64,000 nt of DNA, taken from the NCBI RefSeq assembly GCF_029392675.1, contig NZ_CP113941.1, positions 732,001 to 796,000 on the forward strand. The letters run 5' to 3'. The notes under the pieces are model-generated. The model did no database searches. It worked only from the letters and a program-made list of their open reading frames with translations, and was not told the DNA's origin. The stretch comes from Lactobacillus sp. ESL0684 (GTDB lineage Bacteria > Bacillota > Bacilli > Lactobacillales > Lactobacillaceae). Shown here one piece after another: positions 3,317 through 17,574 of the stretch. Made by a program: the position numbers and the translations under genes. The stretch's first letter is position 1. The number at the start of each line of letters is the position of its first letter.

Positions 3317-3604
3317 AAATTAAATTCTTCAATTTTTGATAGAATCCTTCATGAGAACCAGCCAGTAATACTATCACAACTGTTTCATCTTCTAAGATTT
3401 TATAAGCAACTCGATAGCTAGTCTTTGCATATTTAAACTCGATTGTACGAATACCGGTAAGATCTCCGGTTTTACTCACTTCTACATGTGGATCTATGGC
3501 AATTTGCTGATAAATTACATTGCTTAATTTTTGCTTTAGTCTTTTGTCTTTAAGCTTTTTAGCAATTTTTTTACTTGATTAGTCAGTCTTATGTTATAAA
3601 CCAA
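3315..3604 (-). pseudogene. RelE/ParE-type toxin gene with frameshift in an A7 run
   Basis: Two overlapping minus-strand frames together encode one RelE/ParE-like toxin. The first begins at TTG 3604 (LVYNIRLTNQVKK), overlaps the end of the antitoxin gene by 11 bases, and soon hits a stop. The second continues from the T7 tract at 3566-3572 (A7 on the coding strand) as IAKKLKDKRLKQKLSNVIYQ and ends at TAA 3315-3317. It includes the conserved core GIRTIEFKYAKTSYRVAYKI and the end LLAGSHEGFYQKLKNLI. One extra A, or a -1 slip on the A_AAA_AAA heptamer, restores a single chain of about 96 residues. Family RelE/ParE toxins cut mRNA or poison gyrase; which applies here is not clear. It may be inactivated, phase-variable, slippage-expressed, or a sequencing error. 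Confidence 0.75.
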
Positions 3605-3920
3605 TTTCTTTTTCAAACTCCTCTTGAGTCATAATTGGCTCTTTGGCGCCTTCTTCAGATAGCTTATCAAAAGCTTGTGGTATTGCTTTTTTCTTTTCCA
3701 AAAATTTATCAATCAATTCTTGACCTGAATAGTTCTGGCTGACTAACTCTTTAAGGATATCAGCGTTAAAATCAAAGAAATTATCATTATCAACGAATTC
3801 ATAGAAAATGCCATTATCAGTTAAACGAGGAATAGTAGTTATCCCTTCTTTAACTCCAAAACTTTTTGGAATAGACAACATTACTGCATTTCCTTGTTTT
3901 CTAGTTTTTACCGTTCTCAT
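3594..3920 (-). CDS. AbrB/MazE-like antitoxin of a type II toxin-antitoxin pair
   Basis: A 108-residue protein. The N-terminus MRTVKTRKQGNAVMLSIPKSFGVKEG is a SpoVT/AbrB swapped-hairpin DNA-binding pattern (MazE type). The C-terminal half is acidic and helical (EEFEKEIGL), as expected for the toxin-wrapping tail. Of two possible ATG starts, the one at 3920 is chosen because AGGG lies 9 bases upstream; the ATG at 3929 directly abuts that SD. The last 11 bases overlap the downstream RelE/ParE toxin reading frame, a typical toxin-antitoxin arrangement. Its role would be to neutralise the toxin and repress the operon; a perfect palindrome at 3957-3968 is a plausible self-operator. Confidence 0.8.
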   Translation of the reverse strand: MRTVKTRKQGNAVMLSIPKSFGVKEGITTIPRLTDNGIFYEFVDNDNFFDFNADILKELVSQNYSGQELIDKFLEKKKAIPQAFDKLSEEGAKEPIMTQEEFEKEIGL

Positions 3921-3956
3921 CTTGTTCATCCCTAGAATTATTATCTCATTTCTAAT

Positions 3957-4095: not shown

Positions 4096-4752
4096 TTAGT
4101 TATTTTGATAAGCAGTAACCATTTTAGCAAAAGTTAGTTCAGCGGTATTAGGCACAATGAATTTGGCCTGACTTAACTCAGCTTGGCTTCCAATTCCAAT
4201 GGAAAAGGCACCAGCTGAGTTAATTGCTTGAATACCGGCAATTGAATCTTCAATCCCGATACAATCTGTTACCTTAACGTTAATGGCTGAAGCAGCAGCT
4301 AGAAAAATGTCAGGTGCAGGCTTTCCCAAAGTAACTTGTTGCGGATCGGCAATCGCGTCAAACGAATTACTTAAGCTTAATTTATCTAAAATTAATGGTC
4401 CATTCAAACTGGCAGATGCTAGTGCTAATTTAAAATGATGCTTTTTAAGCTGGTTAATCAACTCACTGATTCCCGGTAAGATGTCAGCAGATGACAAATC
4501 AGTTAGTAATTTACGATAATAGGTATTTTTCTCGTTACATAAATTAGCAAAGTCAGCCTGACTGACGGTAATTTGTAAATAATTTAGTATTGCGGTTAAG
4601 GAATCTTGCCGACTAACGCCCTTAGTTTGGCTTTCTAGTTCAGGTGGTAAATCTTGTTTAAAATGGTCTTGGATGAGTTTGCGCCACGCCTTAAAATGAA
4701 ATACTGAGGTGTCGGCAATGACACCGTCTAGATCAAATAGTACGCCGTTCAT
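4096..4752 (-). CDS. pgmB: Beta-phosphoglucomutase (HAD superfamily)
   Basis: A 218-residue cytosolic enzyme, full length for the family, that interconverts beta-glucose 1-phosphate and glucose 6-phosphate. It shows HAD motif I FDLDGVIADT (nucleophile Asp7, acid/base Asp9), the cap helix region ending at TKGVSRQDSL, motif II LALASAS, the conserved Lys in LGKPAPD, and motif IV GIEDSIAGIQA. The start ATG overlaps the last 20 bases of the upstream GH78 gene, and an SD (AAAGGAA) lies inside that gene, so the two are translationally coupled. It is the last gene of a GH3-GH78-pgmB operon. Oddly, no sugar phosphorylase that would make its substrate is encoded nearby. A related HAD sugar phosphatase is possible but less likely. 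Confidence 0.88.
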   Translation of the reverse strand: MNGVLFDLDGVIADTSVFHFKAWRKLIQDHFKQDLPPELESQTKGVSRQDSLTAILNYLQITVSQADFANLCNEKNTYYRKLLTDLSSADILPGISELINQLKKHHFKLALASASLNGPLILDKLSLSNSFDAIADPQQVTLGKPAPDIFLAAASAINVKVTDCIGIEDSIAGIQAINSAGAFSIGIGSQAELSQAKFIVPNTAELTFAKMVTAYQNN

Positions 4753-7552
4753 TTAAAAATTTCCTTTCACTTGCTAGTGGGGTTTGTTGCAGGATTTGTT
4801 TAATTTGTTTGAGTTCTGAATTAGAAATATTGACAAACGGTAAGGTTTCATTGAGCTTAGTTAACGACAAAGCACCAAAATTTTGAAGATTATCATCTGC
4901 TGATAAGAAGTCAAACACTGGATTAACCTTCTGCAATTGCTTAACTAAGAATTGATCTGCCATAATTATTTTGACAGGTGTTTCCAATTGATAATATTCA
5001 ATGTAGCTTTTGTTTGGTTGATAGCTGATTGAAAACTTACCGTTGGTCAAAGTGAGAGGTTGGTCAGCAAATTGACCGTTGACGAAAATCTTGGTACCGC
5101 TTGAACGAGGTAAACTAACATGGACAACTTGACCAAATGGTACTGTGATGGCTAATTTAATAGTATGCTGTTCATCTGTTTCTAATTGGTATGCTAATTT
5201 TAAATCGCCATAGGAACTCTCATAATGACCATTAACTTGCTTTAGCCGATAGTCAAACTGTGGGGCAAATAGCACTTCTTGATAGCCACTATCCAGGTGC
5301 TTAAGACCAAGGATATGCTGATAAACCCAACTCATAATTGCTCCAACTGAGTAATGATTTAGCGAATTCATCCCCTCAGGATTAATAGTGCCATCAGCTA
5401 GGATTGAATCCCATCTTTCCCAGATAGTTGTTGCACCAAGGTTAACTGCATATAACCAACTAGGAAAATCTTCGTTTAAGAATAATTGCATTGCTAATTC
5501 ATGATGGCCATTGTCAGACAATACCTGACAGATTAGAGGAGTGCCAACAAAACCAGTTTTGAGATGATTTTGGTCTTTAGCTAGGCGGCTAACTAAGTCA
5601 CTGACAACGCGTTCTTTTTGTGATGACGGTACTAAGTCAAAATAAAGTGCTAAAGCATACCCTGTTTGGGTATCAAGTGCCAGGCGACCATTATTAGTGA
5701 TATATTCATTTTTGATGGCTTGTTTGATCGCATTAGCTTGCTTAGTATACTTTTGAGCATCTTTATCTTTACCTAAAATAGTTGCTGTTTTAGCAACAAT
5801 GGTACTGGAATAGTAGTAATAAGTAGAAGCAATAAAATCTTCATCGGTTTTACCAGTTGGCAAGGCAGGATTTTCGCCATCCAGTGCTAACCAATCGCCA
5901 AATTGAAAGCGGCCGGTCCAGAGATTAGGTGTCGTTGTGCTTTGACTAATCCAATCAACCCATGCCTGCATTCCTTGGAAATTTTGTCGTAAAATTGCTG
6001 GATCACCAGTTGCTTGATAAGCATTCCATGGAATAATCGTGGCTGCGTCTCCCCAGATAGCAGCGCCGCCTTCTTCATTACCCATTGCGGGTGCATACAT
6101 TGTTAACATGCCATGATGTTGTTTTTGTTCAATTAACATGTCATTGGCGTATTTTTTGAAAAAAGGATATGAATTCATGTTTAACAATGCGGTTTCGGAG
6201 AATATATCAGCATCACCAGACCAGCCAAGTCGCTCATCACGCTGCGGACAATCCGTTGGCACGTCAACGAAATTACTTTTTTGGCCCCACAAAACATTTT
6301 GCAAGAGGCGATTAACTTTGGAATTTTCTGTTTCAATTTTTCCGATTGTTTTTAAATCAGAATATAACACACATGAATGAAAATTAGCTGCATTAATTTG
6401 TTGTTTGAATCCAGATACTCTAATATAGCGATAACCATAATAGGTGAAATGCGGGCGGATCCACTTATTTTGCCCATCGGAAGTATATTCAAAGGCTGCT
6501 CTAGCTTCACGCAAGTTATCACGGTAAAAGTTACCATCTTGCAAGAGTTCACCCATTTCTAACTTGATGGTATTGCCTAGTTTTTCTTGATTATAAAATT
6601 CTGGCCAACCAGCATGATTTTGTCCGAAATCTAGCACTGTTTCACCGTTTGGTGTTTGGATTATTTGTTGGACTGGCAATTGCTCTTTAATTTTAATGGG
6701 TAGGCTTAAGCGATCACGTAAAATATTCGTAGGGTGGTTGACTAGCTCGGCTGGTTGCCAGTTAGTGACCTTGATCGTGTCGTCATAGTCTTCACCATAG
6801 TAAATAGCGGATTTGGTAACTTTGCCGCTAGTAGTTTGCCAAGTATTATCCGTTTTGATAACCATCTGTGAGCTGTCAATAAATTCCAGATGTAGTTCGG
6901 CTAAAGCGATTTGCCGATTACCGTAAATATTTTCTTGACCGCCTTCGAAACCAAAATTACCTTTATACCAGCCATCTGCTAGTGAAATAACTAATTCCTG
7001 CTGTTGTTGGTCAGTAAACATTTGGCTAACATCATAAGTTTGTACTTGGACTAACTTATCATAAGCCGTGACCCCAGGACTAAGAAATTCTGTACCAATT
7101 TTTCGCTTGTTAAGATATGCTTCATAAAGCCCAAGCCCTGTGATATATAAACGTGCTGTTTTAACTTTTTGGGGTAAAGCGAATTCTTTGCGTAACAGTG
7201 TATTTTGCAAATCCTGGTTGGGATTGCCAATCCATTCTGCTGTATATGGTTCTGTCATTTTTCCAGTTTCAAAAAATGAAATCTGCTCGGTTTGTTGTTT
7301 CTGATTACGCAATTGCACCCTAACAGTATAACGAGTCCGTGGTAACAATGGTACGTGTTCATCAAAAACATTGTTGTCATATTCACGCCAATTAGAGTCA
7401 AAATCTAGTTCGGAACCAGTAATTGTTAGCCGTTTTTGCACATCTGCAAAATCAGCTTTAGTTTGGACACTGAATTCAATACGAATGCTATCGCCTAAGT
7501 CAAACCCGATGGGTTCAACCATTTGATTAATTAAAATATTAGTAATCTTCAT
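4733..7552 (-). CDS. Alpha-L-rhamnosidase-type glycosidase (GH78)
   Basis: A 939-residue protein with the GH78 multidomain layout: N-terminal beta domains (about 1-330, including AEWIGNP and a carbohydrate-binding sandwich with LYITGLGLYEAYLN), an (alpha/alpha)6 barrel (about 400-750), and a C-terminal beta domain. The catalytic region is clear: DVPTDCPQRDERLGWSGDAD, with the likely general acid around Asp439/Glu440, and later TTIWERWDS and NHYSVGAIMSWVY. GH78 enzymes remove terminal alpha-L-rhamnose from plant glycosides such as rutinosides and from polysaccharides. There is no signal peptide, so it probably acts on imported small glycosides. It is followed by pgmB (20-base overlap) and preceded by the GH3 gene 11 bases away. 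The final 80 residues go beyond the usual C-terminal domain and are not recognised. Exact substrate unknown. Confidence 0.87.
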   Translation of the reverse strand: MKITNILINQMVEPIGFDLGDSIRIEFSVQTKADFADVQKRLTITGSELDFDSNWREYDNNVFDEHVPLLPRTRYTVRVQLRNQKQQTEQISFFETGKMTEPYTAEWIGNPNQDLQNTLLRKEFALPQKVKTARLYITGLGLYEAYLNKRKIGTEFLSPGVTAYDKLVQVQTYDVSQMFTDQQQQELVISLADGWYKGNFGFEGGQENIYGNRQIALAELHLEFIDSSQMVIKTDNTWQTTSGKVTKSAIYYGEDYDDTIKVTNWQPAELVNHPTNILRDRLSLPIKIKEQLPVQQIIQTPNGETVLDFGQNHAGWPEFYNQEKLGNTIKLEMGELLQDGNFYRDNLREARAAFEYTSDGQNKWIRPHFTYYGYRYIRVSGFKQQINAANFHSCVLYSDLKTIGKIETENSKVNRLLQNVLWGQKSNFVDVPTDCPQRDERLGWSGDADIFSETALLNMNSYPFFKKYANDMLIEQKQHHGMLTMYAPAMGNEEGGAAIWGDAATIIPWNAYQATGDPAILRQNFQGMQAWVDWISQSTTTPNLWTGRFQFGDWLALDGENPALPTGKTDEDFIASTYYYYSSTIVAKTATILGKDKDAQKYTKQANAIKQAIKNEYITNNGRLALDTQTGYALALYFDLVPSSQKERVVSDLVSRLAKDQNHLKTGFVGTPLICQVLSDNGHHELAMQLFLNEDFPSWLYAVNLGATTIWERWDSILADGTINPEGMNSLNHYSVGAIMSWVYQHILGLKHLDSGYQEVLFAPQFDYRLKQVNGHYESSYGDLKLAYQLETDEQHTIKLAITVPFGQVVHVSLPRSSGTKIFVNGQFADQPLTLTNGKFSISYQPNKSYIEYYQLETPVKIIMADQFLVKQLQKVNPVFDFLSADDNLQNFGALSLTKLNETLPFVNISNSELKQIKQILQQTPLASERKFLNERRTI

Positions 7553-7563
7553 AACTATCTCTT

Positions 7564-9267
7564 CTATAACTTAGTTTCAAAATGACCGCAAAATGGATCC
7601 ACCGGACTCTGGCCCAAGAACTCTTCTTGACCAGCCATTTTTCTTAAAGTAGCGTCAATGGTAGCTTCGTTACCAGTATAGGCGTTGATATAAGTTGAAA
7701 CCGTTGGGACGTCAAATAGATGGTACGGATTGCAAGTTGATACAAAAATAGTTGGAATACTGCGCATAAACCAGGGTGCATCAGCAGCCATTAAATGGAG
7801 CCAATCAATTCTCGTAGTGGTTTGATTACTTGCCGTTTCAATATTGGCTACGTAAAGGGCAAGATCGAACTGCTCTTTTTCGTATTGCAGACCACCTTCA
7901 AAAACTTCATAAAAATCTAGATTTTGGTGATCATAGACACTTACTTTGAAACCCATTTCTGTTAGTTTGCCCTTGAACTTATCACTAACGTGGCCACCCT
8001 CTTTAAAGCCGCCATCATCTGTATCGCCTAAGACAACTAGGCGAATTTTCGGGTACTTTTTTGGAGTAATTGGCAATAATTGATCACGGTCTTTAACTAA
8101 GGTAACTGATTGTTTGGCAATTCTAGTTGCTATTTTTTCGTGTTCAGCTAGTTTTAAATCAAGCTTTGGCAGACGGTGAGTTGCTGATTGATTATTGATA
8201 TTCATAACACCTTGTGCAACTTTAGTCGCGATAATTCTAGTAACGGCTTCATCAAGTCGCTGGCTAGAAATAGTGCCAGCATTAACTGCATTGGTGATGT
8301 ATTGATAATCTTCATCGATGTTTTTATTGAAAAGGATCATATCGATACCAGCATTGATAGTTGTTGGCAATGCTTCTTCACGTGGCAAGATTGCATTATA
8401 GCCAATCATTGGAGTAGCATCGGTAATAGTCAAACCATTGAAGTTTAGCTTGTCTCGTAATAGACCTTCAATTAATAATTTCGAAGTTGTAGCCGGGCGT
8501 AAATCTTCATCTGCAATTCCTGGTTGCAGTTTTCTTTCCCAAGCTGGTTGCATGATATGGGCAATCATGATGCTAGGCAGGCCATTAGCAATTAAATGTT
8601 GATAAATTTGACCATAAGAGTTCATCCACTCATCTGCAGAAAGCGAGTTGATTGAACTTAATAAGTGTTGGTCACGTTCGTCAACACCATCACCAGGAAA
8701 GTGTTTGGCAACAGGAATAATCTGGTTAGCAATCAGCCCAGCAATTTCAGCGTCAGCCATTTCAATTACCGTCTTTTGATCACTACCAAAAGTTCTGGTA
8801 TTCATAATTGGATTACGAAAATTAAGGTCTAGATCAACAATTGGCGAAAAGGCCATATTAGCCCCAACTTGTTTAGCTTCATATCCAGACACATTACCAA
8901 GTTCATAGGCATTCTCAGAATTACCGGTAGCGGCAATTTGCATTGGACGACCTAACCAAGTCCCATCGCTAAGTAGGCCGTTGCCCCCGGCTTCTAAGTT
9001 AGCTGAGATGAAGAGAGGAATTTTACTTTCTGTTTGGACATTATGGATTTCATGTTGCAGTTTGCTTGATTTATCCGGGCGATACATCATACCACCAGGC
9101 TGATATTTTTGAATAAATTCCTTTAAATCAGTTTCGTCTTCATCTTGTCCAATCACAAAAAAGAGTTGCCCAATCTTTTCATTGATATTCATACTTGCAA
9201 CCTTTTGCCGCACAAAGGTAATTTCTTCTGATGATAAGTTATAGGGCTTTTTAGTTAAATCTGTCAT
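7564..9267 (-). CDS. Glycoside hydrolase family 3 enzyme (beta-N-acetylhexosaminidase/beta-glycosidase type)
   Basis: A 567-residue enzyme. The TIM-barrel half (about 20-370) carries the NagZ-type signature KHFPGDGVDERDQH with the Asp199-His201 acid/base dyad, and the nucleophile region GLTITDATPMIGY (Asp283). A second alpha/beta half follows (VVLGDTDDGG, LYVANIE). The His-containing dyad points to beta-N-acetylglucosaminidase or phosphorylase-like GH3 members rather than classic beta-glucosidases; the actual sugar is unknown. No signal peptide. ATG 9267 is chosen since GGAGGGG lies 8 bases upstream; an in-frame TTG 18 bases earlier overlaps that SD. It is first in the operon with GH78 and pgmB and is divergent from the AraC regulator. 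A GH3 phosphorylase could in principle supply a sugar 1-phosphate, though not obviously beta-glucose 1-phosphate. Confidence 0.85.
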   Translation of the reverse strand: MTDLTKKPYNLSSEEITFVRQKVASMNINEKIGQLFFVIGQDEDETDLKEFIQKYQPGGMMYRPDKSSKLQHEIHNVQTESKIPLFISANLEAGGNGLLSDGTWLGRPMQIAATGNSENAYELGNVSGYEAKQVGANMAFSPIVDLDLNFRNPIMNTRTFGSDQKTVIEMADAEIAGLIANQIIPVAKHFPGDGVDERDQHLLSSINSLSADEWMNSYGQIYQHLIANGLPSIMIAHIMQPAWERKLQPGIADEDLRPATTSKLLIEGLLRDKLNFNGLTITDATPMIGYNAILPREEALPTTINAGIDMILFNKNIDEDYQYITNAVNAGTISSQRLDEAVTRIIATKVAQGVMNINNQSATHRLPKLDLKLAEHEKIATRIAKQSVTLVKDRDQLLPITPKKYPKIRLVVLGDTDDGGFKEGGHVSDKFKGKLTEMGFKVSVYDHQNLDFYEVFEGGLQYEKEQFDLALYVANIETASNQTTTRIDWLHLMAADAPWFMRSIPTIFVSTCNPYHLFDVPTVSTYINAYTGNEATIDATLRKMAGQEEFLGQSPVDPFCGHFETKL

Positions 9268-9358
9268 GTATTTTCCCCTCCACAAAATATGTTCTGATTG
9301 ATTTGGTGTTCATTTTAACTTATTGTTAAGAAGCAAACTATTGCTAAAAAGCATTAAT

Positions 9359-9379
9359 ATTATGTTTATTTCACAGATT
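9359..9379 (-). promoter_or_regulatory. Shared 21-base motif, copy 1 (upstream of GH3 operon)
   Basis: Read on the minus strand this is AATCTGTGAAAT, two variable bases (AA), then ACATAAT. It matches the copy at 10449-10469 at 19 of 21 positions. Each copy lies upstream of one of the two sugar operons flanking the AraC-family gene and points in the direction of its operon, so it is a likely regulator site. Confidence 0.6.
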
Positions 9380-9402
9380 TTATTATAGGAAGGAAATAGC
9401 AG

Positions 9403-10413
9403 TTGCAGCAGCAAATTTTACAAACCTTGCGTAAAAATAATGGCTTTCAAGATTGGAACGAAATTTTGGCTAATTTCAAGTCTAAAGGTACAAAATTGAA
9501 GGTTATTCGTCATATTAATGATGAACCTGTGTATGAGTTTTTCGACACATATTCTGATAATTTAGTCTTGAATAGTAGTTCAATTACTATTTCGGTTCAA
9601 CCAGTTAAGTCGTTTATTCCCTATCATTTACATGACTATGTTGAAATCAATATTCCCCTAGTAGGTAGTTGTGTCGTTGAAACTGAGCACGAAAGAATTA
9701 ACGTAGACCAAGATGATATGATTTTTATTGGAATGAAAACACCGCATAAGGTTAAACCAATAGCGGAAGATGGTGTAGTAATTAATATTGAGTTGCGATC
9801 TTCGGCTTTTTCACTAAATGAACTCAATTTTTTGCAGGCAAAAGAAAATGGTATGTCGATTTCCAATTTGTTGTTTTCATTGTTGTCTGATGAAGAACAT
9901 GGTGAAGGCAGATATAGCTTATTTAAAACAGGTCATGACTCTAAAATCGTTAACTTAGTTTACGATATTATTGGTGAATATTACTCTTCGCAGATTCAAT
10001 CTGACCAGATTATTAAGCTAGAAATTTTGACACTTTTTTCCCTCTTGATTCGTAAGACATACTATTTAGATATCAAAGTTACTGACTCAAAGAAGCAAAC
10101 TAATAATTTATTATCGTTGTTACTCTACATTGAAAAAAATTATTCAAAGATTACATTAGAGCAAATGGCTGATCATTTTGGCTTTAATCCTAACTATTTG
10201 TCTGATTATTTGAAGAGTGAAACTGGATTATCATTTATTAAATTAGTACAGTTACAAAGGCTCAATGTAGCAGCTGAATATTTGACGTACACTACTGTTT
10301 CTGTTGAAAAAATAGCTAATAGAGTTGGTTATGAAAATTCTTCATATTTTTATAAAATTTTCAAGCAATGCTTTGGGGTTTCACCTGCGCAATATCGGGT
10401 AAATACGAGATAA
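9403..10413 (+). CDS. AraC-family transcriptional regulator with cupin sensor domain
   Basis: A 336-residue regulator. Residues about 55-150 form a cupin-like sugar-sensing domain (FIPYHLHDYVEINIPLVGSC, MIFIGMKTPHKVKPI). Residues about 235-336 form the double helix-turn-helix: ITLEQMADHFGFNPNYLSDYLKSETGLSF and KIANRVGYENSSYFYKIFKQCFGVSPAQYR, the classic AraC/XylS signature. The start is TTG 9403, with AGGAAGG placed 8 bases before it. It sits between two divergent glycoside operons, both of which carry a near-identical upstream motif, so it most likely activates both in response to a sugar. Inducer unknown. Confidence 0.88.
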   Translation: MQQQILQTLRKNNGFQDWNEILANFKSKGTKLKVIRHINDEPVYEFFDTYSDNLVLNSSSITISVQPVKSFIPYHLHDYVEINIPLVGSCVVETEHERINVDQDDMIFIGMKTPHKVKPIAEDGVVINIELRSSAFSLNELNFLQAKENGMSISNLLFSLLSDEEHGEGRYSLFKTGHDSKIVNLVYDIIGEYYSSQIQSDQIIKLEILTLFSLLIRKTYYLDIKVTDSKKQTNNLLSLLLYIEKNYSKITLEQMADHFGFNPNYLSDYLKSETGLSFIKLVQLQRLNVAAEYLTYTTVSVEKIANRVGYENSSYFYKIFKQCFGVSPAQYRVNTR

Positions 10414-10448
10414 AATTATAGTTAGCTTAAACTGAATTATAGTTAGCT
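10414..10448 (+). repeat. Two 14-base direct repeats 21 bases apart, candidate AraC sites
   Basis: AATTATAGTTAGCT occurs at 10414-10427 and again at 10435-10448. The 21-base period puts both on the same DNA face (two turns), the classic arrangement for AraC-family half-sites. They lie right after the AraC-gene stop codon and directly before the shared motif and the PTS promoter. Confidence 0.6.
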
Positions 10449-10469
10449 AATCTGTGAAATCGACATAAT
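10449..10469 (+). promoter_or_regulatory. Shared 21-base motif, copy 2 (upstream of PTS operon)
   Basis: AATCTGTGAAAT, two variable bases (CG), then ACATAAT, matching the copy at 9359-9379 at 19 of 21 positions. It ends 11 bases before the predicted -35 box, where activators often bind. Confidence 0.6.
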
Positions 10470-10480
10470 TTGTCTGGCTT

Positions 10481-10508
10481 TTGCATATGGCTCACTAATT
10501 GAGATAAT
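10481..10508 (+). promoter_or_regulatory. Promoter of the PTS operon
   Basis: TTGCAT (10481-10486) and GATAAT (10503-10508) are spaced by 16 bases. The predicted start is near 10515, about 45 bases before the EIIC start codon, with a cre-like site just downstream. Confidence 0.5.
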
Positions 10509-10528
10509 CATATACTTAATGCGTTGAA

Positions 10529-10542
10529 TGAAAGCGATTGAT
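10529..10542 (+). promoter_or_regulatory. cre-like site (CcpA) in PTS operon leader
   Basis: TGAAAGCGATTGAT fits the catabolite-response pattern TGWAANCGNTNWCA except near its 3' end. It lies just after the predicted transcription start, a usual place for CcpA-mediated roadblock repression. Confidence 0.45.
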
Positions 10543-10561
10543 ATCTTAAGGAGCGCGAAAA

Positions 10562-13256
<2,695 letters not shown>

Positions 13257-13265
13257 GAGAAAATA

Positions 13266-13586
13266 ATGGCAAAGAAAACAATTATGCTGTGTTGTTCAGC
13301 AGGAATGAGTACTAGTTTGTTAGTGACTAAGATGCAAAAGGCAGCCCAAGCACAAAATATGGATGTAGAAATTTTTGCTGCTCCTGCCTCTGAAGCTGAT
13401 AATAAAATAGCACAGCAACCAATTGACTGCATTTTGCTTGGACCACAAGTTCGCTATATGGAAGCTGAATTTGAAAGTAAATTAGCTGAAACGGATATTG
13501 CATTAGGAGTTATTGATATGCAGTCTTATGGCATGATGGATGGCGAAAAAGTTTTGCAACAAGCAACAGAACTAATGGCTAAATAG
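13266..13586 (+). CDS. PTS EIIB, lactose/cellobiose family
   Basis: A 106-residue cytosolic phosphocarrier of the CelA type. The phosphorylation-site loop is IMLCCSAGMSTSLLV, with Cys10 directly before SAGMSTS as the residue that takes the phosphoryl group from EIIA and passes it to the sugar in EIIC. The extra Cys9 beside it is unusual but should not prevent function. Full length for the family. It lies 9 bases after the GH1 gene and 13 before EIIA, and AGGAGA overlaps the preceding stop region as SD. The gene order EIIC-GH1-EIIB-EIIA makes one operon. Confidence 0.93.
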   Translation: MAKKTIMLCCSAGMSTSLLVTKMQKAAQAQNMDVEIFAAPASEADNKIAQQPIDCILLGPQVRYMEAEFESKLAETDIALGVIDMQSYGMMDGEKVLQQATELMAK

Positions 13587-13599
13587 TAGGTGAATTTAG

Positions 13600-13911
13600 A
13601 TGGCAGAAGAACAAATGCAGACAACTATGCAACTGATTATTAATGCTGGTAATGCTAAGTCATGTGCAATGGAAGCTATTAGTGCTGCAAAAAATCAGGA
13701 ATTTGCAACGGCTGATACTAAACTTGATGAAGCTCAAACAGCCCTGAATGAAGCACATAATGTACAAACTAAGATGTTGACTGAAGAAGCGCAAGGCAAC
13801 CATACAGAAATCTCATTATTGATGGTGCACTCACAAGATCATTTAATGACGGCAATTACGTTTATTGATTTAGCTAAAGAGCTAGTTGATTTATATCGAA
13901 AAATTGCTTAA
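13600..13911 (+). CDS. PTS EIIA, lactose/cellobiose family
   Basis: A 103-residue, mostly helical protein that forms trimers in this family and transfers phosphate from HPr to EIIB. The active-site motif is LLMVHSQDHLMT, with His77 the phosphorylated residue (LacF/CelC pattern). The N-terminal helix LIINAGNAKSCAMEAISAAK is also typical. It is last in the PTS operon. The following 215 bases have no strong terminator but do hold a promoter for the next gene. Confidence 0.93.
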   Translation: MAEEQMQTTMQLIINAGNAKSCAMEAISAAKNQEFATADTKLDEAQTALNEAHNVQTKMLTEEAQGNHTEISLLMVHSQDHLMTAITFIDLAKELVDLYRKIA

Positions 13912-14016
13912 TAACAAGTTAATTTCTATTTAATTAAAAGATAGCTAGATATTGCAAGTTTAACTTAGCATACCTAACTATTTTTTATTTGGGATCCGGT
14001 TTAATAAAGAAGTTGT

Positions 14017-14045
14017 TTGTTTAATATGATTAACTTAGGTACAAT
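14017..14045 (+). promoter_or_regulatory. Promoter of hydrolase gene
   Basis: TTGTTT (14017-14022) and TACAAT (14040-14045) are spaced by exactly 17 bases, about 80 bases before the hydrolase start. A CTTAG/CTAAG inverted pair flanks the -10 box and could be an operator. Confidence 0.45.
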
Positions 14046-14126
14046 TATCTAAGGAATAACCAGTATATATTTACATAGAAGTAAAAATAAATTTACGTAA
14101 TAATTCAGCACACATGGAGTCTAATT

Positions 14127-15056
14127 ATGAAAATCAAAAAAATAAACTTAGTAAAAGATAATCCTGAGGTCACGCTAACAACATATTTGCTAGCTGATTC
14201 ACCGGAAATGCTTGCTGGTAAAGCTCGTCCGGCAATTATTATTTGTCCTGGTGGTGGCTATTTTAATTGTTCGGATCGAGAAGCTGAACCAGTGGCAATG
14301 TATTTTGCAAGTCAAGGCTATCATGCTTTTGTTCTGCGTTATTCAACTTATCAAACGGGTGAACTAACGATGCCTGATTTGTCTAAGCCACTGCCAGTAA
14401 AAGAGGCATCACTATATCCTAGGCAAATTCGCGAATTAGGCCTAGCGATGTTATTAATTAAGCAAAATGCAAGTGATTGGCATGTTGATCCTGATCAAGT
14501 TGGTGTTTGCGGCTTTTCAGCTGGTGGGAATGTTGCTGCGTTATATGCTACTTGTTATAATGAAGCAGTTCTGACAGATTATTTTCAAGTCGCTGCACAA
14601 CAACTGCGACCTGCTTTTGCAATTACTGGTTATGCATTAACTGATTACCATTTATTGGACCGCGATTTAGCAAAGCAAACATCTGATATGGGTGCAGCGT
14701 TTATGAGAGCTTCAAATGTGGCATATTTAGGTAAAGAAATTCCTGATTATGAATTAGAAGCTGCTGTTAGTCCTGTCGATCATGTTGATTCACAAACTCC
14801 GCCATTTTTCATTTGGACCACTGCAACTGATCAACTGGTTTCGGCAGTCCATTCGCTTAATTTAGCTAGTGCTTTAGCAGAAGCCAACATACCTTATGAA
14901 ATTCATGTTTTTGGTGAGGGAGAGCATGGCTTGAGCTTAGCGTCGCAGGCAACTAGTCAGGTAAAAAGTCAAATCAAACCAGCAGTTAGTGAGTGGACTC
15001 ATTTATGTGCCAAGTGGCTAACCAAGCGATTTCCTTTAAATTTAGCAGAAAAATAA
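14127..15056 (+). CDS. Alpha/beta-hydrolase, acetyl-esterase (Axe/BD-FAE-like) type
   Basis: A 309-residue cytosolic hydrolase. It has the oxyanion loop PGGGYFNCSDREAEPVA, the nucleophile elbow GFSAGG (Ser131), a catalytic Asp235 in WTTATDQLV and His267 in GEHGLS. This arrangement is seen in carbohydrate acetyl esterases and feruloyl-type esterases that strip acyl groups from plant oligosaccharides. No signal peptide. It follows the PTS operon with its own predicted promoter and precedes the GH2 gene, so it probably deacylates substrates before glycosidases act. The acyl group and sugar are not identifiable from sequence. Confidence 0.8.
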   Translation: MKIKKINLVKDNPEVTLTTYLLADSPEMLAGKARPAIIICPGGGYFNCSDREAEPVAMYFASQGYHAFVLRYSTYQTGELTMPDLSKPLPVKEASLYPRQIRELGLAMLLIKQNASDWHVDPDQVGVCGFSAGGNVAALYATCYNEAVLTDYFQVAAQQLRPAFAITGYALTDYHLLDRDLAKQTSDMGAAFMRASNVAYLGKEIPDYELEAAVSPVDHVDSQTPPFFIWTTATDQLVSAVHSLNLASALAEANIPYEIHVFGEGEHGLSLASQATSQVKSQIKPAVSEWTHLCAKWLTKRFPLNLAEK

Positions 15057-15063
15057 GTAAATG

Positions 15064-15089
15064 AAGCGTGCTATTTGGCGCACTTTTTT
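15064..15089 (+). terminator. Weak terminator-like hairpin between hydrolase and GH2
   Basis: AAG-C-GTGC pairs imperfectly with GCGC-A-CTT (one mismatch, one wobble) and is followed by six T. It may reduce read-through from the hydrolase gene into GH2. Confidence 0.45.
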
Positions 15090-15117
15090 GCTAATCAGAA
15101 TCAAAGAATGGATAATT

Positions 15118-17574
15118 ATGAAAAAAGAAAATTGGAATAAAAATTGGCGTTTTTGGATTGAAGAAAATTCTTTTCAATTAATTTGGACAACACCCAAAAA
15201 TGCTCGTGAGGTGACTTTGCCGCATGACGCCATGATTGAACAGCAACGTAACCCACATAGCAAGAATGGTAGTAATACCGGTTTTTATGATGGAGGCAGT
15301 TTTGTTTATACCAAGTCTTTGTACGTTGCCAGTTCACAAGTAAGCCAAAATTTTCAGCTTGAATTTGACGGCGTCTATAAAAATGCGCGTGTCTTTGTTA
15401 ATGGTCAATTAGCTGGAGGAAACGATGATGGCTATTCAACCTTTTATGTTCCATTAAATGACTTTCTTAAATATGGTGATGAGAATGAAATTCGGGTGCA
15501 GGTTAAGAATGATGCGGTTCCTAACAGTCGGTGGTATTCAGGTTCGGGGATTTATCGCGACGTCTACTTGCTAGTTGGTGGCTGCGCATATATTAGTCCT
15601 GATAGAGTATCAGTCAAGACAGTTGAGTGTAATCGTGATCTAGCCACCTTACAAGCCGAAGTAGAACTAGTTAATAGTATCGCTAAAAGTGACTACAATT
15701 TGCGAATTAATTTGTTTGATGACCAACAGAAATTACTTGCCAAAACGCAAGCGCCGATTACTCTATTTGCTAATGAAACCAGAAAGGTTAAGCAAAGAAT
15801 CTACTTGAAGCACCCCCAGCTTTGGGATGCCGAACATCCTCACCAATATTTGGTAACGTTTGAATTATTCCAAAATAAAACCTTGGTTGACAGTAGTAAA
15901 ACAAAGATTGGTATTAGAAAATTAAGTTTAGATCCAGTTAATGGCTTGATGGTTAACGGCCAAGCTATTAAATTGCGTGGTGCCGGCATTCATCATGATA
16001 GCGGCTTACTTGGAGCAATGACAACTGAAAAAAATGTTTACCGCCAAATTGATTTATTAAAACAGGCTGGTTTTAATGCTATTAGAATGGCTCATCAACC
16101 AGCTGCCCCGGCACTACTGCATGCATGTGATGAATTAGGAATGTACGTTTTGGACGAAACTTTTGATATGTGGAATAGGAGTAAGTCAGATTATGATTAC
16201 AGCTTAACGTTTAAGAGTAATTGGCGTGAAGTTGTTAGCGCAATGGTTAGGAAAGACTATAATCATCCATCTGTAATTCTGTATTCGATTGGTAATGAAA
16301 TCCCAGAAATTGCAACGGATCAAGGGTTGCAACTCTGCAATCAAATTTGCACTCTGATTGGTGAATTAGATGATACACGGTTTTCGCTAGCTGCAGTTAA
16401 TGGACTTTATACTGTTGGTAGTGATTTAACCAAGATTATTGCTGAAGTAACTAAGGCAAATGAAGCTAAAGATGTCGGTCAGCAAAATATTAATCAATTG
16501 ATGACCTATATGGACAAATATTTAGATCAAATTGTGACTAATTCGGCGATTTCTGAGCAGCTAACCAAGGTGGCAGCTCAGACTGATTTAATTGGCTATA
16601 ACTATATGACTGCGCGATATCTAAAAGATACTAAAGAGCATCCGGAACGAATAATTGTTGGCTCAGAAACTTATCCGCCAGAAATTGCTCGCAATTGGCA
16701 GCTAGTTGAAAAGTTACCGCAAGTTATCGGTGATTTTACTTGGACTGGCTGGGATTACTTAGGAGAAAGTGGAGTAGGAATTCCTAGCTATCAACCAGGT
16801 GATGGCGGATTTGGTGCCCAGTATCCAGCGTTAACCAGCGATGTGGGAGATATTGATATTACCGGATTTAGAAGACCATTGTCGTATTATCGTGAGATTG
16901 TGTTTGGACTACGTAAACAGCCATATTTAGCAGTCCAAAATCCACATCATTATGGTCAGCAGGTTGATTTAACGCCGTGGGTGATGAGCGATACTGTTAG
17001 TAGTTGGTCATGGAACTTGCCTGAAAATGCCAAGACCATTGTTGAGGTATATAGTGGGGGCGATGAAGTTGAATTGCTGTTAAATGGTCGAAGCCAAGGG
17101 AAAAAGCTGGCTGGTTCAGCAGTTAATTATCGGACGCTATTTGAAGTTGGCTATGTGCCTGGAACCCTAACTGCCATAACTTACGAGCATGGAGCAGTTA
17201 TTAGTCAAACTGAGTTAGTTTCTGCAAGTAAAGTTGCTAAAATAGCTTTAACAGCGGAAACAAAGTATAATTGCAAAGATTTTCATGAAAGTCATAACTT
17301 AGCTTATATTGATGTTGATTTGTGTGATAAAGACAATCGAATTATAACTGACGATGATCATGCCTTTACTGTCCAAGCAATTGAAGACAATGTGCAAATC
17401 ATGGTTGTCGGCAGCGGTGATCCTAAACCTGATATATCTTTTAATCAGGAAAAGAGCCGCACTTATCATGGTCATGCCTTAATTATTCTTGAATTGCCAG
17501 ATTCGAAGACAGCTAAATTACGGGTAACGTTAGAAAATGGCCTTATTACTGAAAAAAATATTAAGCTTATTTGA
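15118..17574 (+). CDS. Glycoside hydrolase family 2 enzyme (beta-galactosidase-like)
   Basis: An 818-residue cytosolic GH2 enzyme. An N-terminal jelly-roll sugar-binding domain (LPHDAMIEQ, FQLEFDGVYKNARVFVNG, WYSGSGIYRDVYL) is followed by an immunoglobulin-like domain and the TIM barrel with KLRGAGIHHD, GFNAIRMAH, acid/base Glu394 in YSIGNEIPE and nucleophile Glu517 in VGSETYPP. The C-terminal part has a DUF4982-type domain (EVELLLNGRSQGKKL) and one more beta domain. Substrates in this subgroup include beta-galactosides and other beta-glycosides; sequence alone does not decide. ATG 15118 (MKKENWNKNW) is used; an in-frame ATG at 15061 would only add an implausible 19 residues translated from the hairpin. 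It is the last gene of the glycoside island. Confidence 0.85.
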   Translation: MKKENWNKNWRFWIEENSFQLIWTTPKNAREVTLPHDAMIEQQRNPHSKNGSNTGFYDGGSFVYTKSLYVASSQVSQNFQLEFDGVYKNARVFVNGQLAGGNDDGYSTFYVPLNDFLKYGDENEIRVQVKNDAVPNSRWYSGSGIYRDVYLLVGGCAYISPDRVSVKTVECNRDLATLQAEVELVNSIAKSDYNLRINLFDDQQKLLAKTQAPITLFANETRKVKQRIYLKHPQLWDAEHPHQYLVTFELFQNKTLVDSSKTKIGIRKLSLDPVNGLMVNGQAIKLRGAGIHHDSGLLGAMTTEKNVYRQIDLLKQAGFNAIRMAHQPAAPALLHACDELGMYVLDETFDMWNRSKSDYDYSLTFKSNWREVVSAMVRKDYNHPSVILYSIGNEIPEIATDQGLQLCNQICTLIGELDDTRFSLAAVNGLYTVGSDLTKIIAEVTKANEAKDVGQQNINQLMTYMDKYLDQIVTNSAISEQLTKVAAQTDLIGYNYMTARYLKDTKEHPERIIVGSETYPPEIARNWQLVEKLPQVIGDFTWTGWDYLGESGVGIPSYQPGDGGFGAQYPALTSDVGDIDITGFRRPLSYYREIVFGLRKQPYLAVQNPHHYGQQVDLTPWVMSDTVSSWSWNLPENAKTIVEVYSGGDEVELLLNGRSQGKKLAGSAVNYRTLFEVGYVPGTLTAITYEHGAVISQTELVSASKVAKIALTAETKYNCKDFHESHNLAYIDVDLCDKDNRIITDDDHAFTVQAIEDNVQIMVVGSGDPKPDISFNQEKSRTYHGHALIILELPDSKTAKLRVTLENGLITEKNIKLI

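Follow-up and report, generated by a model that had tools for sequence, protein, structure and literature searches.

Genes and the repeated 21-mer at the AraC locus

The DNA analyzed here, referred to as the window, is a 64,000-nt stretch of Lactobacillus sp. ESL0684 (GCF_029392675.1, NZ_CP113941.1, positions 732,001-796,000, forward strand). Near its left end, two divergent operons flank a gene for an AraC-family protein:

4096-4752, minus strand: pgmB, beta-phosphoglucomutase (TIGR01990, 224.2 bits, cut-off 189.4)
4733-7552, minus strand: GH78 alpha-L-rhamnosidase (profile)
7564-9267, minus strand: GH3, 567 aa from ATG 9267, likely beta-glucoside phosphorylase (profile and PDB 5VQD match)
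9403-10413, plus strand: AraC-family regulator, 336 aa, cupin and two helix-turn-helix motifs, likely binder (profile matches, conservation)
10562-11845, plus strand: PTS EIIC, lactose/cellobiose family (profile)
11817-13256, plus strand: GH1, 6-phospho-beta-glucosidase-like (below the curated cut-offs of named models)
13266-13586, plus strand: PTS EIIB (profile)
13600-13911, plus strand: PTS EIIA (profile)
14127-15056, plus strand: BD-FAE-type esterase, without its own operator in the window (profile)

The C-terminal double helix-turn-helix of the AraC-family protein is recognized by both HTH_18 (73.9 bits, cut-off 33.6) and HTH_AraC (63.3 bits, cut-off 26.6), and its N-terminal AraC_binding (cupin) domain scores 25.2 bits against a cut-off of 21.1. 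Invariant residues are present in both helix-turn-helix motifs across 22 representatives. The GH3 protein aligns over its full length to PDB 5VQD, a beta-glucoside phosphorylase (E 5e-145), and its D199-Q-H201 dyad, of the His/Asp acid-base kind that replaces Glu in such phosphorylases, is aligned with that of 5VQD and is present in 34/34 GH3 hits among relatives (E <=1e-100). The same dyad is seen in NagZ-type GH3 enzymes (alignment to the ybbD/NagZ entry). D283 is the presumed nucleophile, and the position of GGAGGGG suggests that translation begins at ATG 9267 rather than at TTG 9285. The GH3 enzyme is probably a beta-glucoside phosphorylase, an assignment that would account for the linked pgmB gene, and the proximity of the two genes suggests phosphorolysis feeding glucose-6-phosphate. 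Profile searches of the two operons recognized no L-rhamnose catabolic genes. Beyond the PTS operon, after a 215-bp gap, the esterase and a GH2 gene (14127-17574) follow with no operator of their own. At the other edge of the cluster, a small protein (3594-3929, minus strand) weakly resembles PemI/MazE antitoxins, scoring below the curated cut-off of that family.

A near-identical 21-mer, AATCTGTGAAAT-NN-ACATAAT, flanks the AraC-family gene on both sides, as the initial annotation had described: one copy lies at 9359-9379 on the minus strand (NN=AA) and the other at 10449-10469 on the plus strand (NN=CG), with 19/21 positions identical. Each copy is oriented toward its own operon, as had also been claimed, and lies approximately 90 bp from the start codon. 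With up to three mismatches allowed, the 64-kb window holds no further match; the shuffled window gives a mean of 0.11 matches, and 0/100 shuffles reach two. In the 1.89-Mb genome, two exact matches and two matches with three mismatches are found. These latter two are assigned to background because the reversed control pattern gives three. Neither of their loci (L003, L004) contains anything above 8 bits by the 70-column model described below.

Layout of the operator and promoter module

The 21-mer is the distal half only of a conserved promoter module of approximately 70 bp, which additionally contains a second conserved half-site, a poor -35 hexamer, 4 bp of which lie within this half-site, and, at a fixed distance, a -10 hexamer. 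The module was built outward from 28 sites anchored on the 21-mer alone, of which 24 were tabulated; the four sites of the near-duplicate loci L040 and L041 were left out. The second block occupies columns 26-42, where T26, T31, T32, A38, T39, and G41 are each present in 23 or 24 of 24 sites. The -10 hexamer occupies columns 62-67, with T62, A63, and T67 each in 22/24 sites. Both hexamers are putative assignments, and the -35, poor in both window promoters, falls at columns 39-44 if the spacer to the conserved -10 is 17 bp. In the window, the module comprises the following features, together with a candidate catabolite control element:

9359-9379, minus strand: distal half-site of the left operator, the 21-mer (at GH3 in 17/18 loci and 17/17 further loci, below)
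9337-9353, minus strand: proximal half-site of the left operator, columns 26-42, ...TTTTTAGCAATAGT (conserved columns, distal-site anchoring only)
9335-9340, minus strand: putative weak left -35, TAGTTT, sharing 4 bp with the proximal half-site (17-bp spacing)
9312-9317, minus strand: -10 of the GH3-GH78-pgmB promoter, TAAAAT (columns 62-67, fixed distance in the 24 tabulated sites)
10449-10469, plus strand: distal half-site of the right operator, the 21-mer (sequence match, 24-site table)
10475-10491, plus strand: proximal half-site of the right operator, TGGCTTTTGCATATGGC (conserved columns)
10488-10493, plus strand: putative very weak right -35, TGGCTC, sharing 4 bp with the proximal half-site (17-bp spacing)
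10511-10516, plus strand: -10 of the PTS operon promoter, TATACT (columns 62-67)
10528-10542, plus strand: cre-like (CcpA) box, ATGAAAGCGATTGAT, 1 mismatch, near the predicted transcription start (consensus scan)

AraC-family activators that act at the -35 region have this layout, in which the proximal half-site overlaps the -35, and the module is thus arranged as would be expected for an AraC-type activator. The two blocks could represent a 22-bp direct repeat with a common ATAGT end, since an offset of 22 is the best among direct offsets (-10.6, next -16.2), although an inverted alignment of the two blocks scores about equally (-9.7). Two other readings of the region were rejected. ACATAAT is not a -10 box: relatives have CATAAA, CATAGA, or CACACT at this position, and the -10 lies at a fixed position 41 bp downstream. 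The repeat ATTATAGTTAGCT, located upstream of the right copy, was kept out of the module because no conserved block is seen in the 50 columns preceding the motif. A consensus scan of 9200-10700 gave 7 promoter-like elements (7.6 in shuffles) and 0 terminator-like elements (0.6 in shuffles). Its rival for the right promoter, TTTGCA-17-GATAAT at 10480-10508, occurs at chance rate, and the conserved -10 at 10511-10516 is preferred as the probable promoter element.

When the two half-sites are searched together with up to three mismatches, only the two window sites are found in the 1.89-Mb genome, and the reversed control gives 0. No other target was found in this genome by the two-part pattern at this threshold. 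In addition, no gene for GH39, a target in relatives, was found in the genome.

The cre-like box was scored against the cre consensus. Downstream of the -10, a box with at most one mismatch is present at 31/78 sites compared with 2.2% of 7600 random stretches from the same loci, an excess that does not amount to 31 independent events because the 78 sites are related. Exact boxes are found at 18/78 sites and in 0.17% of the 7600 stretches. In the window, a box with at most one mismatch is present at the right promoter only; the one at the left promoter has 2 mismatches.

Conservation of the operator and changes in its cargo

To follow the module in relatives, a family sample of 301 genomes, drawn evenly from a larger group, was searched, and the AraC gene was found in 20 at E <=1e-40. 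Two distant homologues (L045 and L047, 39% and 30% identity) were dropped from the counts, and their loci contain no site above 8 bits. The remaining 18 proteins, including that of the window, align nearly end to end with identity of at least 49%. GH3 is the divergent neighbor of AraC in 18/18 loci, and a full-length GH78 gene comes next in 16/18. Anchoring on the 21-mer alone places a site upstream of GH3 in 17/18 loci and a site within 330 bp downstream of AraC in 11/18. In the other 7/18, the second operator is found in the same locus, kilobases from AraC. In the window, the AraC-family gene at 9403-10413 does sit between the two copies, as had been claimed.

When the model was rebuilt with each genome left out in turn, the GH3-promoter site was recovered in 17/18 loci and a transporter-operon site in 18/18, and in 17/18 this pair of sites outscores the rest of the locus. 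The weakest pair (L038) scores 24 and 20 bits, and no position outside the sites exceeds 9. A third site is carried by L029 (18 bits) and L031. The one exception, L043 in genome G106, keeps AraC and GH3 and has only the transporter site, its GH3 promoter being without one.

A genus search of 75 genomes identified 22 with the AraC gene and supplied one stretch for each of 20 new ones; second AraC copies in G350 and G305 were left out of this set. These further loci were not used for the model. Two of them are contigs also represented as L048 and L049, and in four (L120-L123) the AraC protein is more than 80% identical, directly or via one another, to that of training locus L028. GH3 is kept in 17/20 further loci, the others being L118, L119, and L128. 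All 17 have an operator at the GH3 promoter (40.9-60.6 bits) and at the rightward promoter (36.4-54.1 bits); the rightward promoter of L120 has two sites, the better of which is counted in this range and the other of which scores 27.3 bits. Below the 18-bit cut, the 627,230 positions of the further loci reach no more than 14.6 bits, at a weak GH39 site of L120. L128 has no GH3 cluster and carries a tandem pair of AraC paralogues, which share 47% and 50% identity with the AraC protein of the window; its operator-like sites are all weak, at 28.8 bits or less.

The relatives are related rather than independent: grouping the 40 AraC-like proteins at 80% identity yields 24 clusters, or 22 without the two distant ones, and 4/20 further loci cluster with a training locus. 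At this level, 20/21 AraC clusters with GH3 have the GH3-promoter site. Conservation of the motif in relatives that keep the cluster, the test set beforehand, is thereby borne out, with a site at the GH3 promoter in 17/18 loci and 17/17 further loci.

The operator is nearly restricted to genomes that carry the regulator. The two-part pattern with up to three mismatches matches in 77/301 genomes, and matches at this threshold are mostly noise because the reversed control matches in about 52. Among the sites listed, all 24 with at most one mismatch (15 genomes) fall in AraC-orthologue loci. Of the 13 with two mismatches, nine are in orthologue-bearing genomes and four are in genomes without an orthologue. 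Since the pattern was derived from these loci, the informative part of this result is its emptiness elsewhere. A 21-mer with one mismatch in G034 (L046) fails the 70-column model, with a score not above 8 bits.

The operator stays while its cargo, which may be a PTS, an MFS carrier, or pgmB, changes. The second operator precedes orthologous EIIC-GH1 genes in the window, L028, L029, L033, L039, L040, L110, L113, L114, L116, L120, and L122-L125, and other PTS genes in L043, L109, and L117 (EIIC) and in L111 and L115 (GH1, then EIIC). An operator is found before MFS carriers in L029-L032, L034-L038, L041, L042, L044, L120, L121, and L126, where Pfam identified the carriers of L031 and L044 and similarity to those two identified the others; the MFS gene of L038 is broken in two frames. 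An esterase gene follows the operator-driven MFS gene in L034, L035, L042, L121, and L126, and in L031 an additional site (26.3 bits) precedes an esterase homologous to that at 14127-15056 of the window. In L127 the operator precedes pgmB, and the contig of L112 ends just past the operator. In G178, a 33.1-bit site precedes a GH39 gene at 27 kb, and the AraC gene lies at 1254 kb of the same 1.49-Mb contig. Weaker sites (14.6 and 19.3 bits) also precede GH39 genes in L120, and a site so far from AraC, ahead of the same type of enzyme, agrees with a regulator that acts in trans. The GH39 genes of L120 form a tandem pair (13877-17001) with the first copy in two pieces, each having a weak operator-like site upstream.

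Where both operons have been lost, the operator has decayed. In L118 and L119, the AraC gene is without stops, and its flanks hold no more than remnants resembling GH3 (45 codons) and GH1 (29 codons). The left operator is down to 29.9 bits, with G41 changed and the spacer one base shorter than in L116, and no right operator was found in either locus. Every one of the 69 sites that score over 30 bits in the loci analyzed has G41.

Proposed regulation and relation to known systems

The interpretation considered highly likely is that the 21-mers are the distal halves of two copies of one AraC-type operator, and that the AraC product binds both copies and activates both promoters. The regulator working the two copies is very probably the product of the intervening gene. 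At each operator, AraC would bind both half-sites, the proximal of which overlaps the poor -35. A rhamnosylated beta-glucoside, or a compound formed in its breakdown, is the probable inducer, in whose presence AraC would recruit RNA polymerase to both promoters. Expression from the left promoter would supply GH3, GH78, and pgmB for removal of rhamnose, splitting of the beta-glucoside, probably by phosphorolysis, and entry of beta-glucose-1-phosphate into glycolysis. Expression from the right promoter would provide PTS uptake and phosphorylation, followed by GH1 cleavage, and CcpA probably damps this promoter via the cre-like box. The initial annotation had envisaged one shared control unit. 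The conserved operator at both promoters agrees with this idea, whereas two details require amendment: the partner operon does not always encode a PTS, and the 21-mer is only half of the site.

Since the sites overlap the putative -35 hexamers, where a repressor could act too, AraC might instead bind and repress both promoters until an inducer releases it. This alternative is unlikely, as the predicted -35 hexamers are poor (TAGTTT, TGGCTC) and the -10 hexamers good, as in activator-dependent promoters, and AraC-family sugar regulators are mostly activators. AraC binding at these sites is itself a prediction, and the motif could in principle be read by another regulator, with the AraC gene a mere neighbor. 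Against this very improbable reading, each of the 24 listed sites with at most one mismatch among the 301 genomes belongs to a locus of the AraC orthologue, AraC and GH3 are the fixed members of the cluster loci while transporters vary, and loss of both operons is accompanied by decay of the operator next to an AraC gene that has no stops.

The 19/21 identity of the window copies is also what would be seen if they were a recently duplicated promoter fragment, or alike by chance, with no regulatory role. This is scarcely credible given that the GH3-promoter site and a second site are present together in 17/18 loci and 17/17 further loci, and that the two-part architecture and the spacing to the -10 are kept over many 80%-identity clusters. 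Activation of both operons by AraC through two copies of the two-part operator remains the preferred explanation.

Among named relatives, the nearest to be found were L. melliventris, which carries the cluster with both operators, and an uncultured Lactobacillus. As described in PMC8456714, L. melliventris is a honey-bee gut species that converts rutin to quercetin, and pollen raised a rhamnosidase gene in it alone among four bee-gut species; this gene may possibly be the GH78 gene. A broader proposal is put forward tentatively, with the chances slightly against it: the AraC-operator-GH3 frame, usually with GH78, may serve as a plug-in platform, its operator and promoter forming a dedicated cassette under which species exchange non-homologous transporters (MFS carriers and several types of PTS). 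In the constant arm, the GH3 phosphorylase and beta-phosphoglucomutase would obtain beta-glucose-1-phosphate, at a saving of energy, from plant glucosides that carry rhamnose, rutin for example. Lactobacilli of the bee gut and elsewhere would thereby have a phosphorolytic route for flavonoid glycosides.

A repeat spotted by eye has thus been developed into a defined regulon with a binding site predicted to the base, which provides a direct way to test plant-glycoside sensing in lactobacilli. The GH3-pgmB pairing points to a possible phosphorolytic route for plant glucosides. The dedicated regulon is new, and the type of gene control is already familiar. In openly licensed literature, covered by titles and abstract openings with subscription papers outside the scope, no description of the regulator or operator was found.

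At araI1-I2 and at RhaS-type class II promoters, two half-sites lie upstream and the proximal one overlaps the -35 by approximately 4 bp. The system described here resembles E. coli AraC at araBAD (I1-I2) and the RhaS-type class II promoters in having an AraC-family protein with a cupin and a double helix-turn-helix and two upstream half-sites. It differs in that one dedicated regulator is predicted to serve two divergent operons for plant-glycoside enzymes, and in that the direct half-site period of 22 is a candidate register. Comparative genomics as outlined in PMC3870299, the same kind of method, has described L-rhamnose regulons with AraC-family regulators in Bacillales, Bacteroides, and Enterococcus, where the sites are direct repeats with a 21-bp period. 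Those regulons control L-rhamnose catabolic genes, whereas the window operons are assigned to cleavage of rhamnosyl glucosides. The plant-glucoside loci of Lactobacillus acidophilus likewise combine a PTS with a phospho-beta-glucosidase; the two loci as presented in PMC5698550 are, however, without a GH78, GH3, or pgmB gene, and the term 'AraC' is absent from the main text of that paper. Finally, the GH3 protein is an end-to-end relative of the beta-glucoside phosphorylase BglX/BglP (PDB 5VQD) with the same D-Q-H dyad. A 2022 review (PMC8950772) lists only two characterized phosphorylases in GH3, and BglX/BglP is given there as originating from a metagenomic library, whereas the Lactobacillus GH3 enzyme, for which phosphorolysis is predicted, adjoins GH78 and pgmB.
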